Of a stretch of DNA of 64,000 bases, positions 2,417 through 63,099 are shown in pieces. The stretch covers positions 1 through 64,000 of the IMG/VR virus record IMGVR_UViG_3300044839_000009; one strand, given 5' to 3'. The notes beneath the pieces were generated by a model, which searched no databases, was not told where the DNA came from, and saw only the letters and a list, made by a program, of their open reading frames with translations. Positions within the stretch are counted from its first letter, which is position 1. Each line of letters starts with the position of its first letter. The translations under genes were made by a program, and so were the position numbers. This stretch comes from a virus.

Positions 2417-3697
2417 GTGGCGCATGCCGAGAAGCGCCGGTCGAAGAAGGACGGTCGCTGGTACTGGCGGGTTAAGTACAAGCTCCCGAATGGCAAGTGG
2501 GGCTCGGCGTCCCGGGACGCCGACGGCAACCGTTTCACCACCGAGGCGGCGGCGAAGAAGTACGGGGCTGCACTGGAGACCGATGTCGACCGTGGGGTGT
2601 TCATCAACCCCCGCGACGGTCGGCTCACGGTGGCGGCCTGGGCGGAGTTGTGGCTGGAGTCCATCGACGTCGGGCCGTTGAGTGAGCGCGAGTACCGGGG
2701 GCGGCTCAACTCGGTGATCCTGCCAGAGTGGGGGAGTGTCGCCATCGGGGACATCACGACCATTGCCTACAAGACGTGGGAGAAGCGGCTCCGGCGGCAG
2801 TACAAGCCGAACTACGTGAAGGCCGTGACGTCGGTGCTGAGGACGATGCTCGATGACGCCGTGGCGTCGAAGGTCCGCCCAGACAACCCGGTCCCGACGC
2901 TCAGGACGAGCCGGCGGGGTAAGCACAAGGGTAAGCCGGTGGATGAAACTGTTGTCGTCACGCCTCGCCAGGCGCTGCTGGTGGCCCGCAATGCGCACGA
3001 CCTCCGCGGCTCGGTCGGCTACGTGATGGTGCTGACGATTGCGTACACAGGCATGCGGATCGGGGAGATTTCCGGGCTCCAGCGCAAGCGGCTGATCCTG
3101 CCGACGTTGGGAGCCGACGGTCGGTGGTGGCAGCCGCCGGGTGGCCCCCGGATTCTGCTCGATGTCCAGACGCAGTATGTCGACGGCAAGCCTGCACTGG
3201 TCTCTGCCAAGTACGACTCCCATCGCAGCCTGATCATCCCGCAGTTCTTGGCCGAGCTGCTGCGGGAGTTGATCGCCTCGCACAAGAGCGAGTTCGTGTT
3301 CACGGCGCCGAAGGGTGGCCGGATCCTCATTGGCGGGGACTTTTACAAGGACACCTGGCGTCCGATCGCCGACGGGCGTCCGGCTCGCCCGAGCGGTCCG
3401 GGCTGGCCTCCGCGGCTGCCGATCCGGCCTGTTGAGGGCGTCCGGGATATGACGCCGCATGATCTGCGGCACTCGCACAAGGTGTGGCTCGATGAGGCGG
3501 GGCATCCTCGGGTTGCTGTTGAGGAGCGCATGGGTCACACGCTGCCCGGCGTGGAGGGCACGTACTCTCACACGACGCTGGCGATGGAGCTGAAGATCGC
3601 CGAGTCGCTTCAGGGTCTATGGGAGGGCTCGCAGCGGGTGGTCGTGGACCGGCGGGAGTGGGGCCCCGTGCCGTCGGCCGAGTCTTCTGGCGGTTGA
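2417..3697 (+). CDS. int: Tyrosine recombinase integrase
   Basis: 426 aa from the GTG at 2417 (GAAGAGG just upstream). An N-terminal arm-binding region with KKDGRWYWRVKY is followed by a core-binding SAM-like domain (about 70-160). The C-terminal catalytic domain shows R214 (TGMRIGE), H348-x-x-R351 (HDLRH), H374 (GHTLPG) and nucleophile Y383 (TYSHTT). The protein should catalyse site-specific integration and excision. The attachment region lies immediately downstream, within 110-350 bp, the usual int-attP arrangement. All canonical catalytic residues are present. Confidence 0.95.
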   Translation: MAHAEKRRSKKDGRWYWRVKYKLPNGKWGSASRDADGNRFTTEAAAKKYGAALETDVDRGVFINPRDGRLTVAAWAELWLESIDVGPLSEREYRGRLNSVILPEWGSVAIGDITTIAYKTWEKRLRRQYKPNYVKAVTSVLRTMLDDAVASKVRPDNPVPTLRTSRRGKHKGKPVDETVVVTPRQALLVARNAHDLRGSVGYVMVLTIAYTGMRIGEISGLQRKRLILPTLGADGRWWQPPGGPRILLDVQTQYVDGKPALVSAKYDSHRSLIIPQFLAELLRELIASHKSEFVFTAPKGGRILIGGDFYKDTWRPIADGRPARPSGPGWPPRLPIRPVEGVRDMTPHDLRHSHKVWLDEAGHPRVAVEERMGHTLPGVEGTYSHTTLAMELKIAESLQGLWEGSQRVVVDRREWGPVPSAESSGG

Positions 3698-22532: not shown

Positions 22533-22580
22533 CGGGCACCTCCTCGTGACGGCGCCCGGTGGCGCCCCTACATGGGCTGG

Positions 22581-25500
22581 TCAGCGCTTGTACTGCTGGT
22601 AGGTCAGCGGGTTGCGCGCACCGCGCCGGAGGAAGGCCGCTTCGACGTCCTTGGAGAGCTTGTCGATTGTGGCGACGCTGCCCTCGATGTGGAATTCGAA
22701 GTGGTTGTGGATGACCGCCCCACCGCCGCCGGCGCTGGCGAGCCCAAGGCCGCGGCCGCCAATCGATCCGGCGCCGACGACTGCGCTGGCGAGGTTCGTC
22801 GCCGCCGTCGTCGCATGGTGGCTGCCGTGCTGGATGCCCAGTGCGAGGCCTTGCGGGATGAACTTGCCGAGTTCCGCGAAGACCCGCGACGGCGAGTGGA
22901 TCCCGAGGGCTTTCTCGATGGCTTTCCGCATAGCCTTGGCGATCTTCATCATCTGCTTCTCGATCGCCTTCTCCTGCGACTTCAGCCCCTTGACGAGGCC
23001 CTTCGCCGATTTGATGCCCGCCCCGTACATGGAGTCGGCGACGGCCGCGCCGGTGGAGTTCGCGGCGGTCTTCATCTGGCCCTGCATGCTGTTCAGCTGG
23101 GCGATAGTGCCCTTACTGGCCCCGGCCAGGGCTGCCGCCGTCGCTCCTCCCTGGTCAACTCCGGCGGCGGCGATCTGTGCGACTAGGTCCGAGCTGAGGC
23201 CCTTCTTCTTCAGGGCCTGCAGCTGTGCCGCGAACTGGGTCGCCTTCTGGACCTGTTCGCGCATGTTGTTGACGACGTCCTGCGAGGTGAGGGCGAAGCC
23301 CTCCTGCGGGGCGGTCGTCACGACAGATGCGGACTGCATGATGCCGGAGGCGACACTGTTGCGCTCCGACGTCCACGACTTCTGCAGGTCGGCGAGCTTC
23401 TTCTGCGCGGACTTGAGCCTCTTCGCCACCGAGTCGCGCTTGTTGGCGAGCGACATCAACAGCCTGTCGTCCTTGGCCATTGCCGCCTGGAGCTTCTTGT
23501 GGTGGCTGCCGAAATCCACATACAGGTTTCGGGCGAGGCGTTGTGTCGCCGACCGCACCCGCGCGGTGCTGCCGGTGAGCCCGTCGATGAGGCCGTGCAT
23601 GACCCAGGCGCCGAGTGCCTTGAACTTCTTGCTCGGGCTTGCGATACCCAACTCGCTGGCGAACGTTGACTGGGTGGCCACCGCGGCGCCTCGCATCGAC
23701 GCCACCACGCCGCCCGTGCCGCCGGTGATGCCGTCCGCCAGGCCCTGCATGAGGGCGATGCCGGAGTGGAGAGTCCAGCCGCGGCCGGAAAACGGCCCCT
23801 CCTTCGCTGGGGAGAACGGCAGCAGGTTCCGGGCCGCGTTGAGCGCTGACCTCACGGCGTTCGCCGGGGCTGAGATCATGCTCTTGATGCCGTTGACGAA
23901 GCCCTGCAGCAGGGACTTGCCGGAGTTGTACAGGTAGGAGCCGAGGCTTCCGAGGGCGCCGATGACACGCTTGGGTAGCCCCCTCACCCACGCGACGGCG
24001 AGCATGGCGACCGCGATGTTGGCCTGCTTGAAGCGCTGCCAGGCAGACGATGCGGCGTTGTACAGGTTGGCGCCCAGGGATGCGATGCCGCCGATGATGC
24101 GGCCCGGCAGTGCGGTGACCCAGCTGATCAGGGTGCGGCCCACTGCGACCGTCGCGCGGTAGGCGGCCGAGAACCCGGCGGTGATCTGCTTCCAGTGCTT
24201 GACGATGTAGGCGACCGCAAGGCCGATCGGTCCGGCGAGCAGCCCGATGAGGAGCACCCAGTGGGATTTGACGAAGTTCACGCAGAAGCCGACGGCGGCA
24301 TTCACCGCTGACTTGATCTGTGACCAGTATTTGATCACGCCGAGGACTGCCAGCCCGATCGGGCCGGTGATCAGCGCGAGGATCAGCTGCCAGTGCGCCT
24401 TGACGAAGTTGATCACGAAGGAGACGGCGGTAGCGATCGCGTGGAAGGTCGCGTTCACGGCATTCCGGAACCACGTGAAGTGCGTGTAGGCGTAGACCAG
24501 GCCCGCGACCAGTGCGGCGATCGCCAGCACGATCAGCATGATCGGGTTGGCGTCCATCGCGACGTTCAGCGCCCACTGCGCGACCGCAGCAGCCTTCTCT
24601 GCGATCGCCGACGCGATCAAGGCGATCTTCTGAGCCGTCCACGCCGCCGCAGCCCGGAGTCCAGCCAACGCCGACGCCGCCATCGACTTCGTGAAGTTCA
24701 GCGCCGCCAACGAAGCAGACTTCATCGCCCCGCCAACAGCGCGGACCCCCGAAGCCAGACCGCCCCACGCCGCCTTGCCGGCCGAGGCACTCACGCGGCC
24801 CACGCTCAACGCAAACGACTTCACCGCACCCGTGGCGCTCCTTGCCCCGGATGCCGCCATGCTGAACCCGCTGCGCAACTTCCCGCCGAAAGTTCCAGCG
24901 GCCCCGGTGGCTTCGGACGCCGCCGAGCTGGCGCTACGGAAGCCGCGAACCAGATTCGCGCTCGCCTTGCCCGCGCCGCCCAGGGCCGACGTGAACGGCT
25001 TGAGAGCGCCGCCGATGAACTTCAGCACCGAGCCGGCCAGGATGATGCCGATCGCGGCAGCCAGAACTTTCGTGGCGGCCGTGTGCTGGGTGAAGAATCC
25101 GATGACGGCCGACACGATCGGAATGAGCTTCGTGCCGATGGTGATCGCCGTTGTGGCGACGCGCTCCTTGAGCTGCGCCATCTGCACGTTGAACGTCTTC
25201 TGGGTCTGCGCCCAGCCCTCAACGTCCTTCCCGGCGTGCTTACTGGCTTCGCCGACCGCGGCGACGTTCTTGTTGAAGTCGCTGGCGTTCTCACCGCCGA
25301 GCATGAGCGCGGTGTTGAGGCCAGTGGCGCCGCCCATCATCTTCTTCATCGCCGCGTTGTAGGTCTCGGCCGCCGGACCGCCGCGCTTGAGCGCGTCATT
25401 GAAGCCGTGGGACTTCTCGTACAGGGCGAGAAACTGGGCGCCGAGGACGTGCTGGTCGGCTGGGAGAGCCTTGATCGACTTGTTGTAGTTTTTGACACTG

Positions 25501-26468
25501 GTGGATCCGTTGGCGAGGCCGTCGGCCAGGTGCTTCACGGTGGGTGGCATCGAGCCGAGCATCGTTTTGAGGTCGGCCGATGCCTGCTTGGTCTTGTTGA
25601 ACGTGGACAGCAGGACCGTCCCCGCCTTGCCCATGTGAGTCAGGACGGCCTTCTGCAGCAAGTCGATGGTGCCAGTCAGGCCGCGCTTCCCGAGGTGCGT
25701 GGAGACGTCGTTGCTGGAGATGCCCAGCCTCTGCATCTCTTGGACGGCGACGTTGTTCGGTGCCTGCAAGGAGCGAATGGAGAACGCCAACTCCTGGGTG
25801 GCTTCGCGCGCCGACGTGCCGTGGTTGGTGAGGGTGGCGATGGCGCCGCCGACCTCGGCGAATTTCAGGTGTGCGGAGGCGGCGATCGGCAGGACCGTCG
25901 ACAGTGATCCGGCGAACTCGGCGAACGTCATCTTGCCGTGGCCGACGGCGGCGATCATCTGGTTGGTGATGGTCACGGCCGCCGACGCGGGCATGTGGTA
26001 GCTCTTGAGCGCAGAGGTCACCGCGTTGGTGACCTCCGCGAGCGGAGCCTGCTCCGCGCGGGCGCCCTGCGCCGCCACTCGCAGCACCTCGAGCCCGGCC
26101 TTGCCGTGGAACCCGGCGGACTCCACCATGTACATGCCGTCGGCGAGTTCCTTGGTGCCGGTGCCCGTCTGTACGGCGACGCTCTTGACCCCGTCGGACA
26201 CCATTTTCAGCTTGCCCTGCGACTCGCCGGCCGTGGTGACGAGCTTTTGCATCGACGCCTGGAAGTCGCCGGCCATCTTGACGCTAACGGCCGCGATGCC
26301 CAGTCCAGCAATGGTGGTGGCCTTGCCGACCTTGGTCATCATGCCGCCGAGGCCGCCCATGCGCTGCGTAAAAGACTCGCCGCGCACCGCCGCCTCACCC
26401 AGGCCGCGAGCGAACGGGGCGGTCTCCACCCGGAGGACAGCGAACAGGTCGGCAACCTCAGCGCCCAT
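22581..26468 (-). CDS. Tape measure protein
   Basis: 1295 aa from the ATG at 26468 (AAGGGGG upstream). The N-terminal 350 residues match the TP901-type tape measure core (GLGIAAVSVKMAGDFQASMQKLVTTAGES, ELAFSIRSLQAPN). A central region has hydrophobic helices (VLAAAIGIILAGSVL, IVLAIAALVAGLVYAY), followed by coiled coils and two GIxSPSK/R motifs near the C-terminus. Longest gene of the window; it sets tail length. Its start lies 48 bp from a divergent lipoprotein gene. Confidence 0.95.
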   Translation of the reverse strand: MGAEVADLFAVLRVETAPFARGLGEAAVRGESFTQRMGGLGGMMTKVGKATTIAGLGIAAVSVKMAGDFQASMQKLVTTAGESQGKLKMVSDGVKSVAVQTGTGTKELADGMYMVESAGFHGKAGLEVLRVAAQGARAEQAPLAEVTNAVTSALKSYHMPASAAVTITNQMIAAVGHGKMTFAEFAGSLSTVLPIAASAHLKFAEVGGAIATLTNHGTSAREATQELAFSIRSLQAPNNVAVQEMQRLGISSNDVSTHLGKRGLTGTIDLLQKAVLTHMGKAGTVLLSTFNKTKQASADLKTMLGSMPPTVKHLADGLANGSTSVKNYNKSIKALPADQHVLGAQFLALYEKSHGFNDALKRGGPAAETYNAAMKKMMGGATGLNTALMLGGENASDFNKNVAAVGEASKHAGKDVEGWAQTQKTFNVQMAQLKERVATTAITIGTKLIPIVSAVIGFFTQHTAATKVLAAAIGIILAGSVLKFIGGALKPFTSALGGAGKASANLVRGFRSASSAASEATGAAGTFGGKLRSGFSMAASGARSATGAVKSFALSVGRVSASAGKAAWGGLASGVRAVGGAMKSASLAALNFTKSMAASALAGLRAAAAWTAQKIALIASAIAEKAAAVAQWALNVAMDANPIMLIVLAIAALVAGLVYAYTHFTWFRNAVNATFHAIATAVSFVINFVKAHWQLILALITGPIGLAVLGVIKYWSQIKSAVNAAVGFCVNFVKSHWVLLIGLLAGPIGLAVAYIVKHWKQITAGFSAAYRATVAVGRTLISWVTALPGRIIGGIASLGANLYNAASSAWQRFKQANIAVAMLAVAWVRGLPKRVIGALGSLGSYLYNSGKSLLQGFVNGIKSMISAPANAVRSALNAARNLLPFSPAKEGPFSGRGWTLHSGIALMQGLADGITGGTGGVVASMRGAAVATQSTFASELGIASPSKKFKALGAWVMHGLIDGLTGSTARVRSATQRLARNLYVDFGSHHKKLQAAMAKDDRLLMSLANKRDSVAKRLKSAQKKLADLQKSWTSERNSVASGIMQSASVVTTAPQEGFALTSQDVVNNMREQVQKATQFAAQLQALKKKGLSSDLVAQIAAAGVDQGGATAAALAGASKGTIAQLNSMQGQMKTAANSTGAAVADSMYGAGIKSAKGLVKGLKSQEKAIEKQMMKIAKAMRKAIEKALGIHSPSRVFAELGKFIPQGLALGIQHGSHHATTAATNLASAVVGAGSIGGRGLGLASAGGGGAVIHNHFEFHIEGSVATIDKLSKDVEAAFLRRGARNPLTYQQYKR

Positions 26469-44823: not shown

Positions 44824-44829
44824 AAGTTG

Positions 44830-44925
44830 TGGAGCCGACCGGATTTGAACCGGCGACCTCTCCGTTTGGACTCCAGCAGATGCGGGAGTGGGCCCAAGTG
44901 CTCTACCAAGCTGAGCTACGGCTCC
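44830..44925 (-). tRNA. tRNA-Trp(CCA)-like gene with insertion in the anticodon arm
   Basis: Acceptor GGAGCCG/CGGCTCC, D-arm GCTC-AGCTTGGTA-GAGC and T-arm GCCGG-TTCAAAT-CCGGT are well formed. The 3' side of the anticodon arm reads GTCCAAA-CGGAG-AGGTC, i.e. loop with CCA (Trp) and a normal variable loop. On the 5' side, about 22 extra nt lie between CTTGG and that loop and form their own ACTCC/GGAGT stem. Not a standard bacterial intron. It lies 6 bp from the truncated tRNA-like gene. Confidence 0.6.
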
Positions 44926-49488: not shown

Positions 49489-50268
49489 TTACGGACGCGC
49501 TCCGACGGCGGCTTTGCCGGTGCCGTGGCAAGGTGCGCAGGTGGCCGTGATCTGCTGGCCGCCGAACGCGGAGTAGAGGGCGCCGTTGCCGGCGCAGCAC
49601 CAGCACTTCCCTTCGCGGGCGGCCCGGGCGGGGCTGATGTGCTTGTTCTGCTTCTCCCATTCGGCGTCGGTCATGGCAGGCCCGGTGTTGGCCTTCGTGA
49701 CGGCGGGGGTCGCGGCAGGGGTGGGCGTGTTGCTGGTGGCGGGCTTGGCGTTCTCGGGGAGCTGCTGGTACCAGGCGCCGCCGACGGACTGCCCGCTGTG
49801 CTTCTTCCGCTCGTGGGTACGCAGCGCGGCGGTCGCGGCTTTGGCGTCGCGGTAGCGGGCCTTCTCCCGTTTGCCGCAGGGGCACTTCCAGCCCATGAGC
49901 CCGCTGTTCTTGTCGACGCCGAACCGGGCCTGCTTGGCGACCTGCACCCGGGAGACCTTCATCGTCTTCGGGGTGGCGGTACACGACTTGGAGCCGGTGA
50001 GACGCCCGTCCTTGCCGTGGGTGGCGATCGTGCCGGTGCCGTGGCACTTCGCGCAGCCCTCGTGGGTGGCGCGGAGGATCGCGGCGTCCTTGCGGGTACG
50101 GACGGTGTCGCGGCGGGACTCGGCGAAGCGGACGATGAGCATGGTCAGCCGGAGTGCGGCCCGCTGGCCGAGGGTCTTGCCGCGGGGCGGCCGGCGGGTG
50201 ACGGACTTGCGGGTCACCACCTTCTTCCGGGTGGTTGTGCGGCGGGCGGGCCGCTTCTTCGCTGCCAT
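49489..50268 (-). CDS. Basic protein with DnaJ-type CxxCxGxG repeats
   Basis: 259 aa. A strongly basic N-terminus (KKRPARRTTTRKKVVTRKSVTRR) is followed by CAKCHGTGTI, CPCGKREK, then at the C-terminus CWCCAGNGAL and CAPCHGTGKA. The CxxCxGxG motifs are DnaJ-like zinc centres. Probably binds DNA or the transfer complex; it is directly downstream of the phased repeat array and the translocase gene. Confidence 0.65.
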   Translation of the reverse strand: MAAKKRPARRTTTRKKVVTRKSVTRRPPRGKTLGQRAALRLTMLIVRFAESRRDTVRTRKDAAILRATHEGCAKCHGTGTIATHGKDGRLTGSKSCTATPKTMKVSRVQVAKQARFGVDKNSGLMGWKCPCGKREKARYRDAKAATAALRTHERKKHSGQSVGGAWYQQLPENAKPATSNTPTPAATPAVTKANTGPAMTDAEWEKQNKHISPARAAREGKCWCCAGNGALYSAFGGQQITATCAPCHGTGKAAVGARP

Positions 50269-50312: not shown

Positions 50313-50447
50313 TGTCTATGGGGGCGTCTACACCCCGTCTTGAGGGCGTCTACAGGGCGTCTGGCCTGCGGGGATAGACAGCGGCAAGACGCCCCGTAGA
50401 CGGGCCATAGTCGGGGGTTAGACGGCCCCTAGACGGGGGTCAAGACG
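50313..50447. repeat. Helically phased hexamer array (candidate clt/TRS or centromere)
   Basis: NGTCTN hexamers start at 50313, 50325, 50336, 50347 and 50358. In inverted orientation, TAGACG-type hexamers start at 50375, 50386, 50397, 50408, 50419, 50430 and 50442. Spacing is 11 bp with three 12-bp exceptions or fewer, i.e. about one helical turn. The orientation flips in the middle. The array overlaps the stop codon of the translocase gene. In pSVH1 the clt site bound by TraB also lies next to traB and consists of short repeats. Confidence 0.75.
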
Positions 50448-52542
50448 GGGCAAGTAGGGCATTGGCTGCCGCCTCCACCGTTGAGCGCATCCAGCCGCGA
50501 ACCTGCGGCTTGTTGTTCCAGCTCTGCCGCGACGCGGTCGCCCCGGGCACCAGATCCGCCAACAGAGACTGCAGCTCCGCGCCATCGGCGGCGATCTTTT
50601 CGTCGATGATCAGAGCGGTCGGCAGGAACGTGGACCGCTCCTCCTCGAACAGGCCCAGCAGTGCGGAGATCTTCAAGGCGCGGGCGTCGTCGACGAGCAT
50701 CAGGCGATCCGACAGCGACAAGCCGCCATCGCCAGACATCGACTCGGGCCCGTACTCGTCCGCCAGGTGCAGCAGCTTCGCCTCAGCGAGCGTGTCGTAG
50801 TCGAACCACGGACGGCCCGCAGCCTTGCGCTCCTCAACGGCCCGCCGGATGCCCCCGTTCGAGTGCTCGTTCCACCCGTACAGCAGCGCCCGAACCAGAC
50901 CAGCACCCTTGATGTAGGACCGGCCCGCGTCGTTCTTGATGTCCTTGTTCTGCGCAGGCTCCAGCCGGTCCGGACGGAACCCAGCCGCACCGGCACCCGG
51001 ACCGAACACGAGGCGGATGTCGTCGAAGCGGGAAGCGAGCATCACGCGGAACGTGAACGAGTCCGCCACGGCGTCACCGAGGCTGTCGCTGGTGGCGTCC
51101 TGGCCGGCGGCGATCGGGAACATACCCACCTGCTTGCCGAGGCGGCAGAGCTGAATGAACAGCTCCTTCGCCTTCTGGCTGAGGTAGATGAACTCGTCTA
51201 CGCAGGGATAGATGTCGGGGTACTCGCGGGACGCCACCCACGTGTCGCCCATCTTGAGCCTGTTGCGGACCACATTGCGGGCCTCGGCCATCTTCACGAG
51301 GTAGCCGAGCCACAGTTCGCAGTCCTTGTTGCCGCGGATCGGGGGGACGGCCATGACGCCTTCGAACTCGCGCAGTCCGTCCTTGACGGGGTCGAGGTCG
51401 AGGGCGATCGCGTTGTGACAGGCCGTGATGACCTCGGCCAGGTCGCGCAGGACACCGGTGGTCTTCGCAGACCCGGACGATCCGATGACGAGGATGCGGA
51501 GGCCTTCGAGGACCACGTCGAGGGCGGTGCCGTCCATGCAGCGGCCGAAGTTGTGCGGGTCGGAGATGCTGAGGCTGTTCGGGGCGTGAACGGTCGGCTT
51601 GGGCATGTCGGCGAACGGGTCGCCGGTGACGAGCCGCAGCGTGATGTGGGCCCGGTTGCTGGCGTCTGTTTCGACGAGGAGGCCGCCGGACCGGAGGTGC
51701 ATGTGGGCTTCGAGTTTGTCGGCGGCCTTGTTGACGTCGTCGGGGGTGGAGCCCTTGAGGTCGATGTCGACCTCCCAGCCCCAGCCGCGGTGCCCCAGGA
51801 TGTCGACGCGACGAGTGCCGATGCCTTCGTAGGTCAGTGCGCGGCCCAGGCACTCCTCGACCTGCTGGCCACCGGTGCACCAGGCGAGCGGGAACGGCTC
51901 TTCTCCGTCGTCGGCGTCGGCGGCGGCGATCAGCTCCTGCGGGGCGAGCTTGTTCTCGAGCCGGTACCGGCCGTACAGGGTGAGGAGCGCCCCGGCAGCG
52001 AGGGCTTCGGTGCCGGGGGCGACGGCCCACGAGTAGTCCACCGCGGTGAGGCCGGCGTACTTCACGAGCGCCCACCACGACGCCAGGTCCGTAGCCACGG
52101 TCCCGGCGGCGAGCCAGCCCAGGGTGCGCCAGCGCTTCTTGCGGGTGATCTCGACCTTGTTCCAGTCGGCGCCCCGGCTCATGCCGCCGATGACCTCCTG
52201 GAGGTCGTGGGCGCGGACGTACCGGTAGCCGAGGTGTCCAGCGGCTTTGGCGCCGTGACCGAAGTAGTAGGTGAGTCCACACGCCCGGCGCGCCGACAGG
52301 CCGACGACGCGGCCGGTGCGCGAGGCGACGACCATGGCGGCGGACGCGCCCCGGTAGAGGACGGGCGGGCGGGGCGTGTAGTACTCGACGACGCCCGGCG
52401 CGATGTCGTCCTCGTCTCCGTGGGGCTGCGGGATGACCTCGCCGACGATCGTCTCCGTCACGCCCGCGGGCTTCATGAAGTCGGGCACGTCGAGGTCGTC
52501 GGCCGGGTCGGCGGGCGGACGGTGGAAGCCGTTGATGGTCAC
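50440..52542 (-). CDS. FtsK/SpoIIIE-type DNA translocase, TraB/TraSA-like
   Basis: 700 aa. An acidic N-terminus and two to three hydrophobic segments (about 65-190) are followed by an FtsK motor with Walker A GSSGSAKTT (354-362) and Walker B YPCVDE (445-450). The C-terminus has further HTH-like helices (GATASRQSWNNKPQVRGWM). In Streptomyces elements such proteins move double-stranded DNA between hyphae by hexameric translocation. The neighbours are Spd-like membrane proteins. A role in phage DNA handling cannot be excluded. Confidence 0.85.
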   Translation of the reverse strand: MTINGFHRPPADPADDLDVPDFMKPAGVTETIVGEVIPQPHGDEDDIAPGVVEYYTPRPPVLYRGASAAMVVASRTGRVVGLSARRACGLTYYFGHGAKAAGHLGYRYVRAHDLQEVIGGMSRGADWNKVEITRKKRWRTLGWLAAGTVATDLASWWALVKYAGLTAVDYSWAVAPGTEALAAGALLTLYGRYRLENKLAPQELIAAADADDGEEPFPLAWCTGGQQVEECLGRALTYEGIGTRRVDILGHRGWGWEVDIDLKGSTPDDVNKAADKLEAHMHLRSGGLLVETDASNRAHITLRLVTGDPFADMPKPTVHAPNSLSISDPHNFGRCMDGTALDVVLEGLRILVIGSSGSAKTTGVLRDLAEVITACHNAIALDLDPVKDGLREFEGVMAVPPIRGNKDCELWLGYLVKMAEARNVVRNRLKMGDTWVASREYPDIYPCVDEFIYLSQKAKELFIQLCRLGKQVGMFPIAAGQDATSDSLGDAVADSFTFRVMLASRFDDIRLVFGPGAGAAGFRPDRLEPAQNKDIKNDAGRSYIKGAGLVRALLYGWNEHSNGGIRRAVEERKAAGRPWFDYDTLAEAKLLHLADEYGPESMSGDGGLSLSDRLMLVDDARALKISALLGLFEEERSTFLPTALIIDEKIAADGAELQSLLADLVPGATASRQSWNNKPQVRGWMRSTVEAAANALLAPS

Positions 52543-52563: not shown

Positions 52564-53979
52564 TCAGTTGGCGGGGCTGGTGGCGGTCTGCTCGATGGAT
52601 GCCTGCCGCTTCGCGAGCGGGCTGTTCGGCTGCGCGTCGCCGGGCGTGCGGAGCGGCGGGATGCCGCCGTTGTTGCGGCGTCCGTCGGGGGCGTCGGGGT
52701 CACGCTTCGCGCGTGGTGCCTTTTGGGATTCGACCTGTGACAATGCGTCACCGGGAGCGATCTCCATGGCGGCCTTCATCCGGGCCTGAGCGAGACGGCT
52801 CAGCTCCTCGATGTCGGGCGTGATGCCGACCGTCCGGGAGCCGGTGACGCGAGACCAGGCGTCGCTCCAAATCTGCTCGGTGACGAACTGCGAACCACGC
52901 GCGGAACGCATCGCCTCGGCGACCTCCCACACCTGCGGGTGGCCCTCCTTGCGGTCCTCGTCCCGGCGCTTCTGCTCGGCCCCGGCTTGCTTCTGCTGCT
53001 CGGCCTTCTCGGCGGCGGCCTTCTTCGCGGCGGCGTCCTTCTCTGCCTTCGCCTTCTCCCGGTCGGCCGCCTCCTTGGCCTTCGCCTTGTCGCTGGCGCG
53101 GCGCTCCCGGAGCGACGGGATGCCGTCAGCCTTCTGGGCGATGCCATGCTCGTAGGCCATGAGGACGATCGGGCCACCAAGAGAAGCGAGGGCACCAATC
53201 AGTCCGGCGTTCAGGCCGATCGCGGGGTCGGTGAGGCCGTGCCACAGGTTGACACCAGCGGCGATCATCGCGCCGAACATGATGCCGATCCGGTACGGCA
53301 TTACGTCACGGCGGTGAGCGACCGCCCAAGCTGCGCCACACGCCAACACCAACGCCAGGCCTTCGAGCAGGGCCGGGGCCGCCACCATGAACTTGCGCTC
53401 GGGGTCCCAGAAGGCGATGAACTGCACCGGCGCGGCGATGATCAGACCCACGGCGTAGATACCGCGGGCGCCCCACTTCCACAGAGACTCGGTGCGCTGC
53501 TGCTCGGCGGCACGCTCGGCTTCACGCTGAGCCTCGTCCTCCGCAGCCTTGTCGGACTTCTCCTTGGCGGCCTTCGCGGATGCTTCCTCGTTGGCCTTCT
53601 TGGCGAGGTATGCAACCTGGTCGGCCTGGTCGCGCTCCAGCTTCATGCGGGCGCGCTCGTTGGTGATCCGCAGCCGCTCTGCCTCCTCGGCGGCCTTGAT
53701 CTCAACGGCCTTCGCCTCGGCCTCGGCACGGATGCGCCGCTCCTCAGCCTCAGCCTCGGCACGGGTGCGGATGGCCTCGGCCTCGGCCTCCGCAATCGGG
53801 TCGACTCCAGGGGCGGTGGCGGTCTTGGCGACCACGGGAGCGGCCTCGACGGTCTCGGGCGCCTCGGCCTGGCGCTCCCACACGGTGGCACCGCGGTCGA
53901 AGTTGATCGGCTGCCAGGGTCCGAGCTCGCGGACGGCAGGCCGCTTGGTGCCGTTCATCTGGGTCGGGCCGGCGTTCAC
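52564..53979 (-). CDS. SpdB/DUF2637-like membrane protein with long coiled coils
   Basis: 471 aa from the GTG at 53979 (AGGAGAT upstream). A 120-residue charged coiled coil (AEAEAEERRIRAEAEAKAVE) precedes four membrane helices (about 172-285: GIYAVGLIIAAPVQFIAFW, LEGLALVLACGAAWAVAH, IGIMFGAMIAAGVNLW, LIGALASLGGPIVLMAY). A second coiled coil and an HTH-like tail follow. This is the SpdB layout of AICEs, which cooperate with TraB in intramycelial spread. Confidence 0.75.
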   Translation of the reverse strand: MNAGPTQMNGTKRPAVRELGPWQPINFDRGATVWERQAEAPETVEAAPVVAKTATAPGVDPIAEAEAEAIRTRAEAEAEERRIRAEAEAKAVEIKAAEEAERLRITNERARMKLERDQADQVAYLAKKANEEASAKAAKEKSDKAAEDEAQREAERAAEQQRTESLWKWGARGIYAVGLIIAAPVQFIAFWDPERKFMVAAPALLEGLALVLACGAAWAVAHRRDVMPYRIGIMFGAMIAAGVNLWHGLTDPAIGLNAGLIGALASLGGPIVLMAYEHGIAQKADGIPSLRERRASDKAKAKEAADREKAKAEKDAAAKKAAAEKAEQQKQAGAEQKRRDEDRKEGHPQVWEVAEAMRSARGSQFVTEQIWSDAWSRVTGSRTVGITPDIEELSRLAQARMKAAMEIAPGDALSQVESQKAPRAKRDPDAPDGRRNNGGIPPLRTPGDAQPNSPLAKRQASIEQTATSPAN

Positions 53980-54015: not shown

Positions 54016-54315
54016 TTACGCGGCGGGCCGGCTGGCCCATCCGCGGTGGAACTCGGCGGTGAACGCGTCGGCCATGCCGACGCCGATGGTCTGACCGACC
54101 GGCGGCTTCCCCGCCCGGGCCGCGGCCTCGAACTCCAGCCGGGCCGCGAACGTCGCCGCCAGCCCGATCAGCGCCCGGGCCGCACGCAGACCGAACACCG
54201 CCAGACCGAGCAGCAGGGGGCCGCTCCACACCAGGACACGAGGGATCCAGCGGCCCAGCCAGCGCACGGCCTGCTGGCGCCGGGACGGCTTCGCGGTGAT
54301 CAGATAGGCGTGCAT
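54016..54315 (-). CDS. Small membrane protein of the transfer operon
   Basis: 99 aa with one hydrophobic region (VLVWSGPLLLGLAVFGLRAARALIGLAATFAARL) and a conserved-looking end GVGMADAFTAEFHRGW. Lies between the SpdB-like gene and another small membrane protein. Spd-type accessory role inferred. Confidence 0.65.
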   Translation of the reverse strand: MHAYLITAKPSRRQQAVRWLGRWIPRVLVWSGPLLLGLAVFGLRAARALIGLAATFAARLEFEAAARAGKPPVGQTIGVGMADAFTAEFHRGWASRPAA

Positions 54316-55146: not shown

Positions 55147-55497
55147 TCAGAGACCGAGGACGTGGTACGGGAACGGCTCGTGCTCCATCCCGACGCCGAA
55201 ACTCTTGATCCAGTACCAGTGGAACGGGAACTCCCGGACGCCCAACTCCATGAGGGCGATGGCCCGGTGGTGCCCGTCACCGACGTACACGTCGTCCGGG
55301 AAGCGCTCGGAGATGCCCAGCTCAATCGGCTTCCGCAGCCCGACCTTCGCGATCGACTCCTTCAGCTCCTCAACCAGCTTCCGGTCCTTCCCGGGGCGGG
55401 CGAACTCGCGCTCGGCGTCAGCCCACTTCCGGAACTGGATCGGACGGATCTTGCTGTCGGTGAGGAGCGACGTCCGCATCTGGCCCAGGTACTTCAT
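55147..55497 (-). CDS. ParB/Srx-type nuclease-fold protein
   Basis: 116 aa. ELKESIAKVGLRKPIELG...VYVGDGHHRAIALMELG contains the GDGHHR motif of the ParB N-terminal (CTPase/nuclease-like) domain. No HTH follows, so it is not a full partition protein. Stand-alone ParB-fold proteins occur in AICEs and phages as nucleases or DNA-processing factors. Confidence 0.75.
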   Translation of the reverse strand: MKYLGQMRTSLLTDSKIRPIQFRKWADAEREFARPGKDRKLVEELKESIAKVGLRKPIELGISERFPDDVYVGDGHHRAIALMELGVREFPFHWYWIKSFGVGMEHEPFPYHVLGL

Positions 55498-57449: not shown

Positions 57450-58214
57450 ATGCCCGAGAACGAAGACGAGCAGAGAGGCCCGTGGGCCAAACACGAGCTG
57501 ATCACCGCCTACCTGCGGTACGGCATCCTGACAGGCGAGTACCCGCCGGGAAGCAACCTGCCTCCCACCCGCATCCTGAAGGAGATGTTCAAGGCCGCCC
57601 CGCAGACCATCCGCGAAGCGACCATGAAGCTCGCCGAGGAGAAGCTGGTCTACAGCAAGATGGGCAGCGGCATCGTGGTGCGCGATCACCGGCAGACCAC
57701 GATGACGCCCGCGGCCTACAAGGATCCGGCCGGACCCGGAGAGAAGTACCGGTGGATCGCCGAGGCGGAACGGCACGGCCGGGCAGGACGTTCTGACCTG
57801 CTCTTCGTCGGCGAGGTCACTCCGCCGGCCGACGTGCGCGCAGCCATGGGACTCGCCGAGGACGGCACGGCCATGGAGCGCCGCCAGGTGATGTACCTGG
57901 ACGACGAGCCGTGCGAACTGGTCAAGTCGTACTACCCGATGGACCTTGCGCGCGACACGGCCATGGCCGTCAAGCGGAAGATCAAGGGCGGCACGCCTCG
58001 CCTGCTGGCCGACATGGGCTACCCGCCAGTGAAGTGCATCGACAAGGTGTCGGCGATCCAGCCGACTCCGGAGCAGTACGAGGCTCTTCAGATGCCTACG
58101 AAGCTTCCCGTGTTGCGCACCTTGCGGACGGTGTTGAGTGTCGACGACCGGATCATCGAGGTGTCAGAGATGGCGAAGGCTGGTCACCTGTACGAGATGC
58201 AGTACGAGTTCTAG
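57450..58214 (+). CDS. GntR/HutC-family repressor (KorSA-like)
   Basis: 254 aa. GntR winged helix at residues 12-75 (ELITAYLRYGILTGEYPPGSNLPP, APQTIREATMKLAEEKLVYSKMGSGIVV), then a UTRA domain (about 100-250: RRQVMYLDDEPCELVKSYYPM, GYPPVKCIDKVSAIQPTPEQYEAL). The position between two identical outward promoters, one in front of the transfer-like operon, suggests that it controls transfer as KorSA does in pSAM2. Two bases separate it from the UTRA-only gene. Confidence 0.85.
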   Translation: MPENEDEQRGPWAKHELITAYLRYGILTGEYPPGSNLPPTRILKEMFKAAPQTIREATMKLAEEKLVYSKMGSGIVVRDHRQTTMTPAAYKDPAGPGEKYRWIAEAERHGRAGRSDLLFVGEVTPPADVRAAMGLAEDGTAMERRQVMYLDDEPCELVKSYYPMDLARDTAMAVKRKIKGGTPRLLADMGYPPVKCIDKVSAIQPTPEQYEALQMPTKLPVLRTLRTVLSVDDRIIEVSEMAKAGHLYEMQYEF

Positions 58215-61916: not shown

Positions 61917-62141
61917 TCACGTCTCGGGCAGCGTCTCCTGCTCGACCTCGAACCGGCCCACGCCCGGCCCGCTGCTCAGCCCGAGCTTCCGCCGGCAGTG
62001 GCGGCCGAGACCCCACCGTCGGGACTCGGCGGCCGTCAGCGGCTCCTCGCACAGGCGGCAGACGACAAGGGGACGCCCCTCCGCCGGCAGCTCGGGGAGC
62101 AGGCCAGGGAGGGGCGTCGGGTCGGGGCTGGTGGTCGCCAC
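61917..62141 (-). CDS. DUF6011-like zinc protein
   Basis: 74 aa from a GTG overlapping the stop of the RNA ligase gene (TAGTG). CRLCEEPLTAAESRRWGLGRHCRRKLG is the DUF6011 signature (CxxCgrpLtdpeSrxxGxGpxCrr). Coupled to the ligase, so possibly part of the same process. Confidence 0.75.
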   Translation of the reverse strand: MATTSPDPTPLPGLLPELPAEGRPLVVCRLCEEPLTAAESRRWGLGRHCRRKLGLSSGPGVGRFEVEQETLPET

Positions 62142-62734
62142 TACTTCGGGAAGTCGCGGGCCTTGAGCTTCGCCATCCGGCCGTCTGGGTGATGCCATAC
62201 GACGCCTTCCATGCCGTACTCCTTGGCGAGTTCGAGCAGTCGGGGCTGCAGGGTGTCGTAGAGCAGCGGCTCCGTCAGCTTGACCACCCTGGCGTTCGTG
62301 TGGGCGATGAGCTCGTGGACCTCGCGGCGCTCCGGGTTGCCGTTGACCTTGGGGCCGACCAGTTCGTAGGTGCCCGGCTTCCATGAGCCCGGGTCCACGC
62401 CTTCCGGGTAGTCCGCTTCCTCCGCGTCGGCGACCGCTTCGGCGTGGAACTTCGCGAACGCCGACTGCGCGACTGGCTCCCAGCCGACGGTCTTACCCGT
62501 CTCGTCGTCGGTGGAGATCGGTACGTAGTTCGGCGGCGCGGTCTTGTCGGCCTTCACCTCACGCCGGGCCCACCACTCGCCGGACTCGTCGAGCATCACG
62601 CACGTGCCGTCGTACTTCCGGGTCGCCACGCCCTCGCCGGCGAGGACCCACTCGCAGCCGGGGTTTACCTTCGGCAGGACGTGTGCTGGCCGGGCATCGA
62701 AGTCGCGGATGAACAGGGTCGGGATCTTGCGCAT
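62141..62734 (-). CDS. RNA ligase (nucleotidyltransferase superfamily)
   Basis: 197 aa from the ATG at 62734. Motif I K40-Y-D-G (TRKYDGTCVML) is the adenylation lysine. YELVGPKVNGNPE is motif III/IIIa, EGVVWHHPDG motif IV and AKLKARDF motif V. The protein consists of the catalytic domain alone, as in small phage RNA ligases (DUF5565-type). Expected to seal 5'-phosphate/3'-hydroxyl RNA ends, for example nicked tRNA. Coupled to a DUF6011-like gene. Confidence 0.8.
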   Translation of the reverse strand: MRKIPTLFIRDFDARPAHVLPKVNPGCEWVLAGEGVATRKYDGTCVMLDESGEWWARREVKADKTAPPNYVPISTDDETGKTVGWEPVAQSAFAKFHAEAVADAEEADYPEGVDPGSWKPGTYELVGPKVNGNPERREVHELIAHTNARVVKLTEPLLYDTLQPRLLELAKEYGMEGVVWHHPDGRMAKLKARDFPK

Positions 62735-62802
62735 GGGTCGGATCTCCTCCGGGTGGCGGGTCGGTTCGAGGCTAGCGGCCCGCCCCGGCGTGGGGCGGGC
62801 GG

Positions 62803-63099
62803 TCACGGCTGGTACTCCTCGACGATGCCGAAGGTGGCGGTGAGCTGCTGGCGTTGGGGGCAGGGGAACTCGCCGGTCCCGCAGGCGCAGACGGTGGCGG
62901 CCCGCCAAAGGGGCTCGCCGGTCTCGGGGTCCTTCCTCCGGCCGTCAGTTACCCAGGTCATGGTCGGCCGGTGCCAGTGAAGAGCGAGGCGCGCAACGTC
63001 CTGAAGCTGTCGAATGCCGTCGGGGCGGACTGCGGCACGTTCGATCACGTCGGGCAGCGGGTCGTAGGGCTCTGGTAGACGCTCAGCGGGGCCGTTCAC
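62803..63099 (-). CDS. Hypothetical protein downstream of WhiB
   Basis: 98 aa from a GTG overlapping the WhiB stop (GTGA). RPDGIRQLQDVARLALHWHRPTMTWVTDGRRKDPETGEPLW then VCACGTGEFPCPQRQQL. The cysteine trio may bind metal. Small proteins of this type accompany WhiB in actinophages. Function unknown. Confidence 0.6.
   Translation of the reverse strand: MNGPAERLPEPYDPLPDVIERAAVRPDGIRQLQDVARLALHWHRPTMTWVTDGRRKDPETGEPLWRAATVCACGTGEFPCPQRQQLTATFGIVEEYQP

Follow-up and report, generated by a model that had tools for sequence, protein, structure and literature searches.

The window studied here is the first 64,000 nucleotides (positions 1 to 64,000) of the virus record IMGVR_UViG_3300044839_000009, which is 87,406 bases long. 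It was found that a convergent phased array of short repeats (50313–50447, assigned to neither strand) lies at the 3′ end of a gene for an FtsK/SpoIIIE/TraB-like DNA translocase of 700 amino acids (50440–52542, minus strand). Five GTCT sites on the plus strand (50314–50362; starts 50314, 50326, 50337, 50348, and 50359) face seven AGAC-type sites on the minus strand (50376–50446; starts 50376, 50387, 50398, 50409, 50420, 50431, and 50443). The site at 50409 is AGTC, with one mismatch, and the other 11 sites are exact. The start-to-start spacings are 12, 11, 11, and 11 base pairs (bp) in the GTCT arm, 17 bp across the centre, and 11, 11, 11, 11, 11, and 12 bp in the AGAC-type arm. The array covers the last codons and the stop codon of the translocase gene, with the last site of the AGAC-type arm (50443) overlapping the end of the coding sequence, and its other end is separated by about 45 bp from the start codon (ATG) of a gene for a basic protein. 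The first-pass annotation of this DNA, made by a model from the letters and their open reading frames, had described five hexamer copies facing seven others about 11 bp apart at the 3′ end of the translocase gene; both the layout and the location proved to be correct.

Eleven exact GTCT or AGAC words fall within 135 bp at this locus, and the maximum elsewhere in the 64-kb window is five per 135 bp. I scored arrays as any 5-mer repeated in two convergent chains at helical spacing. The window array has a score of 9, which was reached in 0/500 shuffles, and the maximum in 20,000 dinucleotide shuffles was 5. When the whole 87.4-kb record was scanned, no second place with a score above 6 was found. 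The phasing at 11 bp is tight in each arm (Rayleigh R of 0.97 and 0.98). When both arms are pooled, R is 0.28 at 11 bp and 0.73 at 10.5 bp, so that the arms do not share a common 11-bp register. Thus, the earlier proposal that all the repeats lie on one face of the helix holds for each arm but not clearly for all twelve sites together.

Are such arrays present in homologous elements? Relatives of the translocase were drawn from IMG/VR, GTDB genomes, genome samples around Streptomyces, and plasmids. In the samples around Streptomyces, which overlap in part and were searched with different E limits, 8/392, 26/391, and 34/394 genomes had a translocase match. After L010, L011, L012, L017, L020, L022, L036, and L037 were left out as duplicates or as the same element, 76 distinct loci, including the window, were anchored at the translocase stop codon. 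They were divided into 40 close loci (at least 43% identity to the window translocase) and 36 distant ones. It was revealed that 38 of the close loci and 23 of the distant loci pass the array test, or 61/76 overall; L062, which contains a masked stretch (N) and has no shuffle test, is not among the 23. A lack of phased repeats in homologous elements had been named in the first-pass annotation as a result that would speak against its reading of the array, and the opposite was found.

The source record has phage-family matches for a portal, a terminase, a major head protein, a head protease, a tape measure, and an integrase. Thus, the record is a tailed phage genome and probably a prophage of the Streptomyces type. 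Tailed-phage genes and a tra-like gene lie on one element, as in the plasmid-phages of the pZL12 type. Among related virus records, the tape-measure family was found in 19/26 (the window record and 18/25 relatives) and the integrase family in 19/22. The portal of the window is common to only 1/25 relative records, and its terminase was matched in 2/32 records and genomes. Since the portal and the terminase are mostly unshared, the module travels among different tailed phages. The translocase-array module also occurs on plasmids such as pSLUN2 (L071) and a plasmid of Streptomyces sp. NBC_00285 (L070). No TrwC-type relaxase was found in 22 virus records, some of which are fragments. In contrast to these phage records, the plasmid records of L070 and L071 are typed as MOBF-relaxase positive by PLSDB.

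The layout of the array is more constant than its word across the relatives. The consensus words are CCGTCTA (the window and ten more loci), CGTCC, CCCGGC, TGCTCA, TGCTCG, TGCTA, CCCTCG, GATCAG, GTGAC/GTGAT, TGACA, GGAAC, CTCTA, GATCGG, and GATCCG. Thus, several copies of a short word are present in each array and the word differs between elements, as is the case for the cis-acting locus of transfer (clt) of Streptomyces plasmids. The 40 close loci have 9–15 sites per array, mostly 11–13. The spacing within the arms is 10, 11, or 12 bp in 324/396 cases, a statistic that is partly built in, since a site with one mismatch had to lie on an 11-bp lattice to be counted. The 18 loci of the TGCTC/TGCTA/CCCTCG group have nearly symmetrical arrays, in which two sets of three words, separated by about 21 bp, are followed by their mirror image; the site count is exactly 6 + 6 in 9 of the 18 loci. 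The symmetry is lower in the CCGTCTA group, to which the window belongs.

Another element of the arrays does not change with the word. The sequence GACCTGC/GCAGGTC was found in 52/72 arrays irrespective of the word (L059, L062, L066, and L072 were left out of this 7-mer count), while no 7-mer exceeded 27 in any of 30 shuffled sets. In the symmetrical arrays, GCAGGTC forms an inverted pair in the gaps; most CCGTCTA and CCCGGC loci have a single copy, close to the middle of the array. In the window, a degenerate copy, GCAGGCC, lies at the centre of the array (50363–50369, minus strand). One GCAGGTC is also present near the 3′ end of pIJ101 traB and may be there by chance.

Next to the conserved layout stands the switching of the word, which was compared with the translocase sequences. 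In 38 close loci (L042 and L045 were left out), the similarity of the words correlates with the identity of the translocase C-terminus with an r of 0.89, or 0.83 with the core identity removed. The correlation with the ATPase core, given the C-terminus, is −0.14. For residues 650–690, the observed covariation value was reached in 0/2000 label permutations. In sliding windows, the partial r is 0.63–0.87 within residues 591–698 only and at most 0.29 elsewhere in the translocase. The same trend was found between lineages: in a set of 63 loci, from which L064 and the loci with weak arrays were left out, 1109 cross-lineage pairs with low core similarity gave an r of 0.69 (0/1000 permutations). As no other part of the translocase is so close to the array as the C-terminus, linkage might produce a misleading correlation. 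However, the basic gene is equally near on the other side, and its protein does not covary with the word (r of 0.16, partial r of 0.02; 37 loci, with the gene located by a conserved-motif anchor and L047 left out since the gene was not found there). For the gene upstream of the translocase, the correlation with the word is about zero. Proximity alone therefore does not account for the way in which the word and the C-terminus change together.

The C-terminal 126 residues of the translocase were modelled by AlphaFold2 with 49 sequences. The predicted local distance difference test (pLDDT) score exceeds 90 over most of residues 614–698 (50449–50703, minus strand), and the order of the elements is that of a winged helix. 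This domain is proposed to be the reader of the array on the basis of the model, the fold matches, and the covariation. A model of the full-length translocase (9 sequences) had a pLDDT of 37 and was not usable. Foldseek gave no match to the C-terminal model at E < 0.001. In VIA-align, the best Z was 6.6 (Rex, 72 residues) and the others were lower, with 8/994 chains at a Z of at least 5. These fold matches support a generic winged helix and point to no closer kin. FtsK gamma is absent among the VIA-align matches listed, which proves nothing about kinship.

Few residues split the word classes cleanly, and most of them lie in the beta-wing (residues 671–685; 50488–50532, minus strand), the strands of which are 671–675 and 678–685 in the model. 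The wing residues that switch with the word are 671, 675, and 680, and 682 in other lineages. Position 671 is Thr in 8/8 TGCTCA loci, Pro in 8/8 TGCTCG loci, and Gln in 3/3 TGCTA loci, one of which (L058) has a translocase only 33% identical to that of the window. TGCTCA is also split from TGCTCG by hydrophobic swaps at 640, 666, 672, and 675. Position 680 is Gln in 11/11 CCGTCTA loci, Arg in 2/2 CGTCC loci, and Tyr in 6/7 CCCGGC loci; positions 674, 677, 678, and 681 likewise split CCGTCTA from CCCGGC. Gln usually prefers A and Arg usually prefers G, which fits CGTCT versus CGTCC at position 680. Position 682 is usually Arg, but it is Asn in L005, the word of which has changed from TGCTCG to CCCTCG. 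Residue 682 is Ser in L081, L084, L088, and L089, whose words resemble GATCCG (GATCtG in L088), and Arg in L065, L069, L082, L086, and L087, whose word is GATCGG. In L005, L081, L084, and L089, Arg682 is replaced where a G of the word becomes C. The Ser682 loci may be a single lineage.

In summary, the array keeps its place and its layout, while its word switches together with the C-terminal domain of the translocase; neither the ATPase core nor the adjacent genes follow the word. Since the relatives change their words together with the DNA-reading end of the pump, the array is most likely the docking site of the pump itself. The putative function that I consider highly probable is a clt-like cis-acting site for the recognition and loading of the element's own FtsK/TraB-like double-stranded DNA (dsDNA) translocase. 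The first-pass annotation had compared the array to clt on account of its position, and this reading has gained support: the gene is FtsK/SpoIIIE-like (phrog_12531), most homologous loci have an array, and the word covaries with the C-terminal winged helix. In the proposed mechanism, the winged helix of each subunit would bind one word of 5–6 bp, with the choice of bases set largely by the residues of the beta-wing. Words 10–12 bp apart would let neighbouring subunits line up on a single face within an arm, and the convergence of the arms would give two sets of subunits that oppose each other. Once loaded, the motor might export the element DNA from the cell to a partner or carry it through a hyphal cross-wall, in the manner of TraB on Streptomyces plasmids; TraB pumps dsDNA according to the available text of the sources (PMC4170104, PMC12857230). 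A private word for each lineage would keep the pump of one element off the DNA of another.

How does the array compare with known systems? Through their C-terminal winged helices, the dsDNA pumps FtsK (FtsK gamma) and SpoIIIE read short words, the FtsK-orienting polar sequences (KOPS) and the SpoIIIE recognition sequences (SRS), respectively. KOPS and SRS have a polarity and occur dispersed across a chromosome. Unlike them, the words here are in one cluster of two convergent arms in 87 kb and are not scattered in one direction. A close likeness is clt with the TraB recognition sequences (TRS) of pSVH1, pWTY27, and pJV1, where an FtsK-like pump also uses its C-terminal domain to read short, element-specific repeats, as far as the accessible parts of the reports describe them (PMC3583192, PMC4170104, PMC12857230, PMC9513070). 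The TraB C-terminus reads 8-bp repeats at clt in the portions available (PMC4170104, PMC3583192, PMC5365140). For the present words, reading by the C-terminal domain is indicated indirectly, through covariation. The clt repeats of pWTY27, in the part of its description that was at hand, overlap the 3′ end of the translocase gene, and the array likewise lies at or next to that end. The array differs from clt/TRS in its two convergent arms, phased at 11 bp and with about 12 sites in all, the invariant GCAGGTC, specificity residues mainly in the wing, and tailed-phage carriers. The TcpK boxes at the origin of transfer (oriT) of pCW3 are alike in that a winged helix reads tandem 9-nt repeats of a transfer site through its beta-wing, according to the sections of PMC6137059 that were accessible. 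TcpK (5vfx) appears in the fold list at a Z of 4.3, which indicates a common fold only. Unlike the proposed array reader, TcpK is a separate relaxosome protein and not a part of the pump, and it belongs to conjugation of the oriT/relaxosome type. Large Streptomyces elements with phage genes are also represented by pZL12 and by pSLE1 of S. leeuwenhoekii; the first 45 kb of pSLE1 has no annotated translocase.

Sites of the clt kind, with element-specific repeats read by the translocase C-terminus, are already known; new here are the arrangement in two arms, the GCAGGTC element that does not vary, the code in the wing, and the tailed prophage as carrier. A literature search, which had most subscription papers outside its scope and covered others in part, found no account of two-armed 11-bp arrays, of the GCAGGTC element, or of a wing code. 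The array becomes part of a natural series, in which some ten docking words each have a matching reader domain, and such a series would be enough to work out how pumps of the FtsK/TraB type choose their DNA. This choice is otherwise known from a few plasmids. A simple rule for docking sites at translocase 3′ ends also makes such sites searchable, and the two-arm layout makes the number and the direction of the loaded motors directly testable. Tailed prophages with a conjugation pump would be able to spread in two ways.

A wider scheme is speculative and rather unlikely as a whole. Many different tailed Streptomyces prophages may share a shuffling module of the conjugation type, whose pump would dock on an address of twelve words in two arms. 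One hexamer would load on each arm, so that two opposed motors could deal with a closed circular molecule and no relaxase would be needed. The beta-wing would be a readable code that provides each lineage with its private address, GCAGGTC would recruit a common partner, and the phage might thus shift its genome from one hyphal compartment to another, or mate, with no particles being made.

Several observations weigh against a clt-like docking site. Fifteen of the 76 loci fail the exact array test, a few of them with degenerate copies visible by eye. The close loci L035 and L042 are among those with visible degenerate copies; the arrays of L061, L064, L069, L070, L077–L080, and L088 are weak, borderline, or doubtful; and nothing array-like was seen at the translocase 3′ ends of L059, L066, and L072. 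No array was found at the translocase 3′ ends of the phage FtsK homologues of Riptide and Mandalore. At the traB 3′ end of classical pIJ101-type TraB plasmids (pIJ101 and L091–L094), such an array is lacking in 5/5, and these canonical plasmids were rejected as a source of arrays. The translocase itself matches the NCBIfam model plasmid_TraB (NF041214) with 25.8 bits (E of 3.5e-6), far short of the curated cut-off of 800. Shared ancestry is not wholly accounted for by the permutations or the partial Mantel tests. Moreover, the word-linked residues are mainly in the wing, in contrast to helix alpha3, through which TraB is reported to recognize DNA in the available part of PMC3583192; the helix may have a role here too. 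Residues 197–589 of the translocase match the FtsK/SpoIIIE-like phage family phrog_12531 across the motor (E of 1.1e-70). With its strong match to this family and its weak match to plasmid TraB, the protein is an FtsK-like pump that is related to the classical TraB family but stands outside it. The plasmids matched by the window translocase and those matched by pIJ101 TraB form largely different lists.

The same translocase may read the same site for a purpose other than conjugation, namely KOPS-like dispersal or segregation of prophage or plasmid DNA across cross-walls or at division. The presence of array-bearing translocases in tailed-phage records (the tape-measure match in 19/26) agrees with this, and the lack of a TrwC-type relaxase in the 22 records is expected for dsDNA pumping of either kind. 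However, the array is clustered, convergent, and beside its own gene, unlike the dispersed polar KOPS, and the module of translocase and array is also found on plasmids, where a DUF2637 gene lies upstream. I regard such a purpose as possible but doubtful; it overlaps with the docking-site explanation, which would hold whether transfer, spread within the mycelium, or segregation is the main task of the pump. The inverted arms might instead form a hairpin or a replication structure. They do fold as single-stranded DNA (−43.3 kcal/mol, z of −7.0), but no Rfam match was found, and the complementarity of the flanks is 0.428 between mirrored partners (n = 201) versus 0.411 between random partners of the same array, while the words are 0.93 identical. 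Since the flanks are no more complementary than that, the pairing of the arms seems to be a by-product of the words, and a hairpin function is very unlikely.

The first-pass annotation had offered an operator for the downstream basic protein and a partition centromere as alternatives to clt, and both are now disfavoured. An operator of the basic gene or of the translocase operon, bound by a GntR protein, another regulator, or the basic protein, would fit the short distance to the basic gene start codon, and a GntR regulator is encoded at 57450–58214. GntR matches were found in 6/76 loci, including the window, with flanks that were often too short to tell. The word covaries neither with the basic protein (r of 0.16) nor with the upstream protein, and in several relatives the array extends into the coding part of the translocase gene, which makes an operator improbable. 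A parS-like centromere would be read by the ParB-like protein of 116 amino acids at 55147–55497, whose match is weak (phrog_1033, E of 1.5e-4). This protein was found in 0/75 other loci within the flanks covered, while the array persists and its word follows the translocase; a centromere is thus highly improbable. As the record is a tailed phage with a terminase and a portal, one might also think of a packaging (pac/cos) site read by the terminase. Array-bearing relatives often have an unrelated portal (1/25 share it) and terminase (2/32 match), and the word follows the translocase here too, so that a packaging site can be given hardly any credence. Against these alternatives, the docking site of the translocase remains the preferred explanation.

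The gene directly after the array (49489–50268, minus strand) encodes a basic, zinc-ribbon-like protein with a Lys/Arg tail (DnaJ_CXXCXGXG, E of 8.8e-5, below the cut-off). It was found in 39 other loci and directly follows the array in nearly all close loci. Its N-terminus resembles a histone tail, and its motifs resemble zinc ribbons. This gene is a conserved partner and not the reader of the array, since its protein does not covary with the word; the protein is a candidate for an accessory DNA-binding partner. In CCGTCTA- and CCCGGC-type loci (such as L009, L024, and L029–L032), the stretch between the array and the basic gene contains an almost invariant block similar to ATTGATCCATATATGTGAAGTTC, which may be a promoter or a protein site. 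In the window, only a weak remnant of a block like ATTGATCCATATATGTGAAGTTC was found. Upstream of the translocase, a long charged and hydrophobic protein (52564–53979, minus strand) is a conserved partner found in 42 other loci; its region is the place of the DUF2637 genes in plasmids. A small protein (54016–54315, minus strand) is conserved in the same module and was found in 22 other loci.

Other features of the record were also noted. ARAGORN predicted a tRNA-Val(cac) of 97 nt at 44829–44925 inside the phage genome; it is unusually long and may contain an intron or be false. An integrated actinomycete integrative and conjugative element (AICE), which the tRNA at 44829 had suggested, was rejected in view of the phage genes. 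The match to a replication initiator in the record is weak (phrog_4707). The tape-measure family match at 22539–26402 of G000:C1 crosses an in-frame TGA, which may reflect a frameshift, a sequencing error, or two genes. A serine resolvase (9269–9835; PF00239, E of 5e-44) and a tyrosine integrase (2417–3697) are encoded in the window. The same phage has a TROVE (Ro60-like) RNA-binding protein at 11726–13435 of the window (PF05731, E of 1e-15) and an RNA ligase at 62141–62806 (phrog_14301, E of 7e-48).
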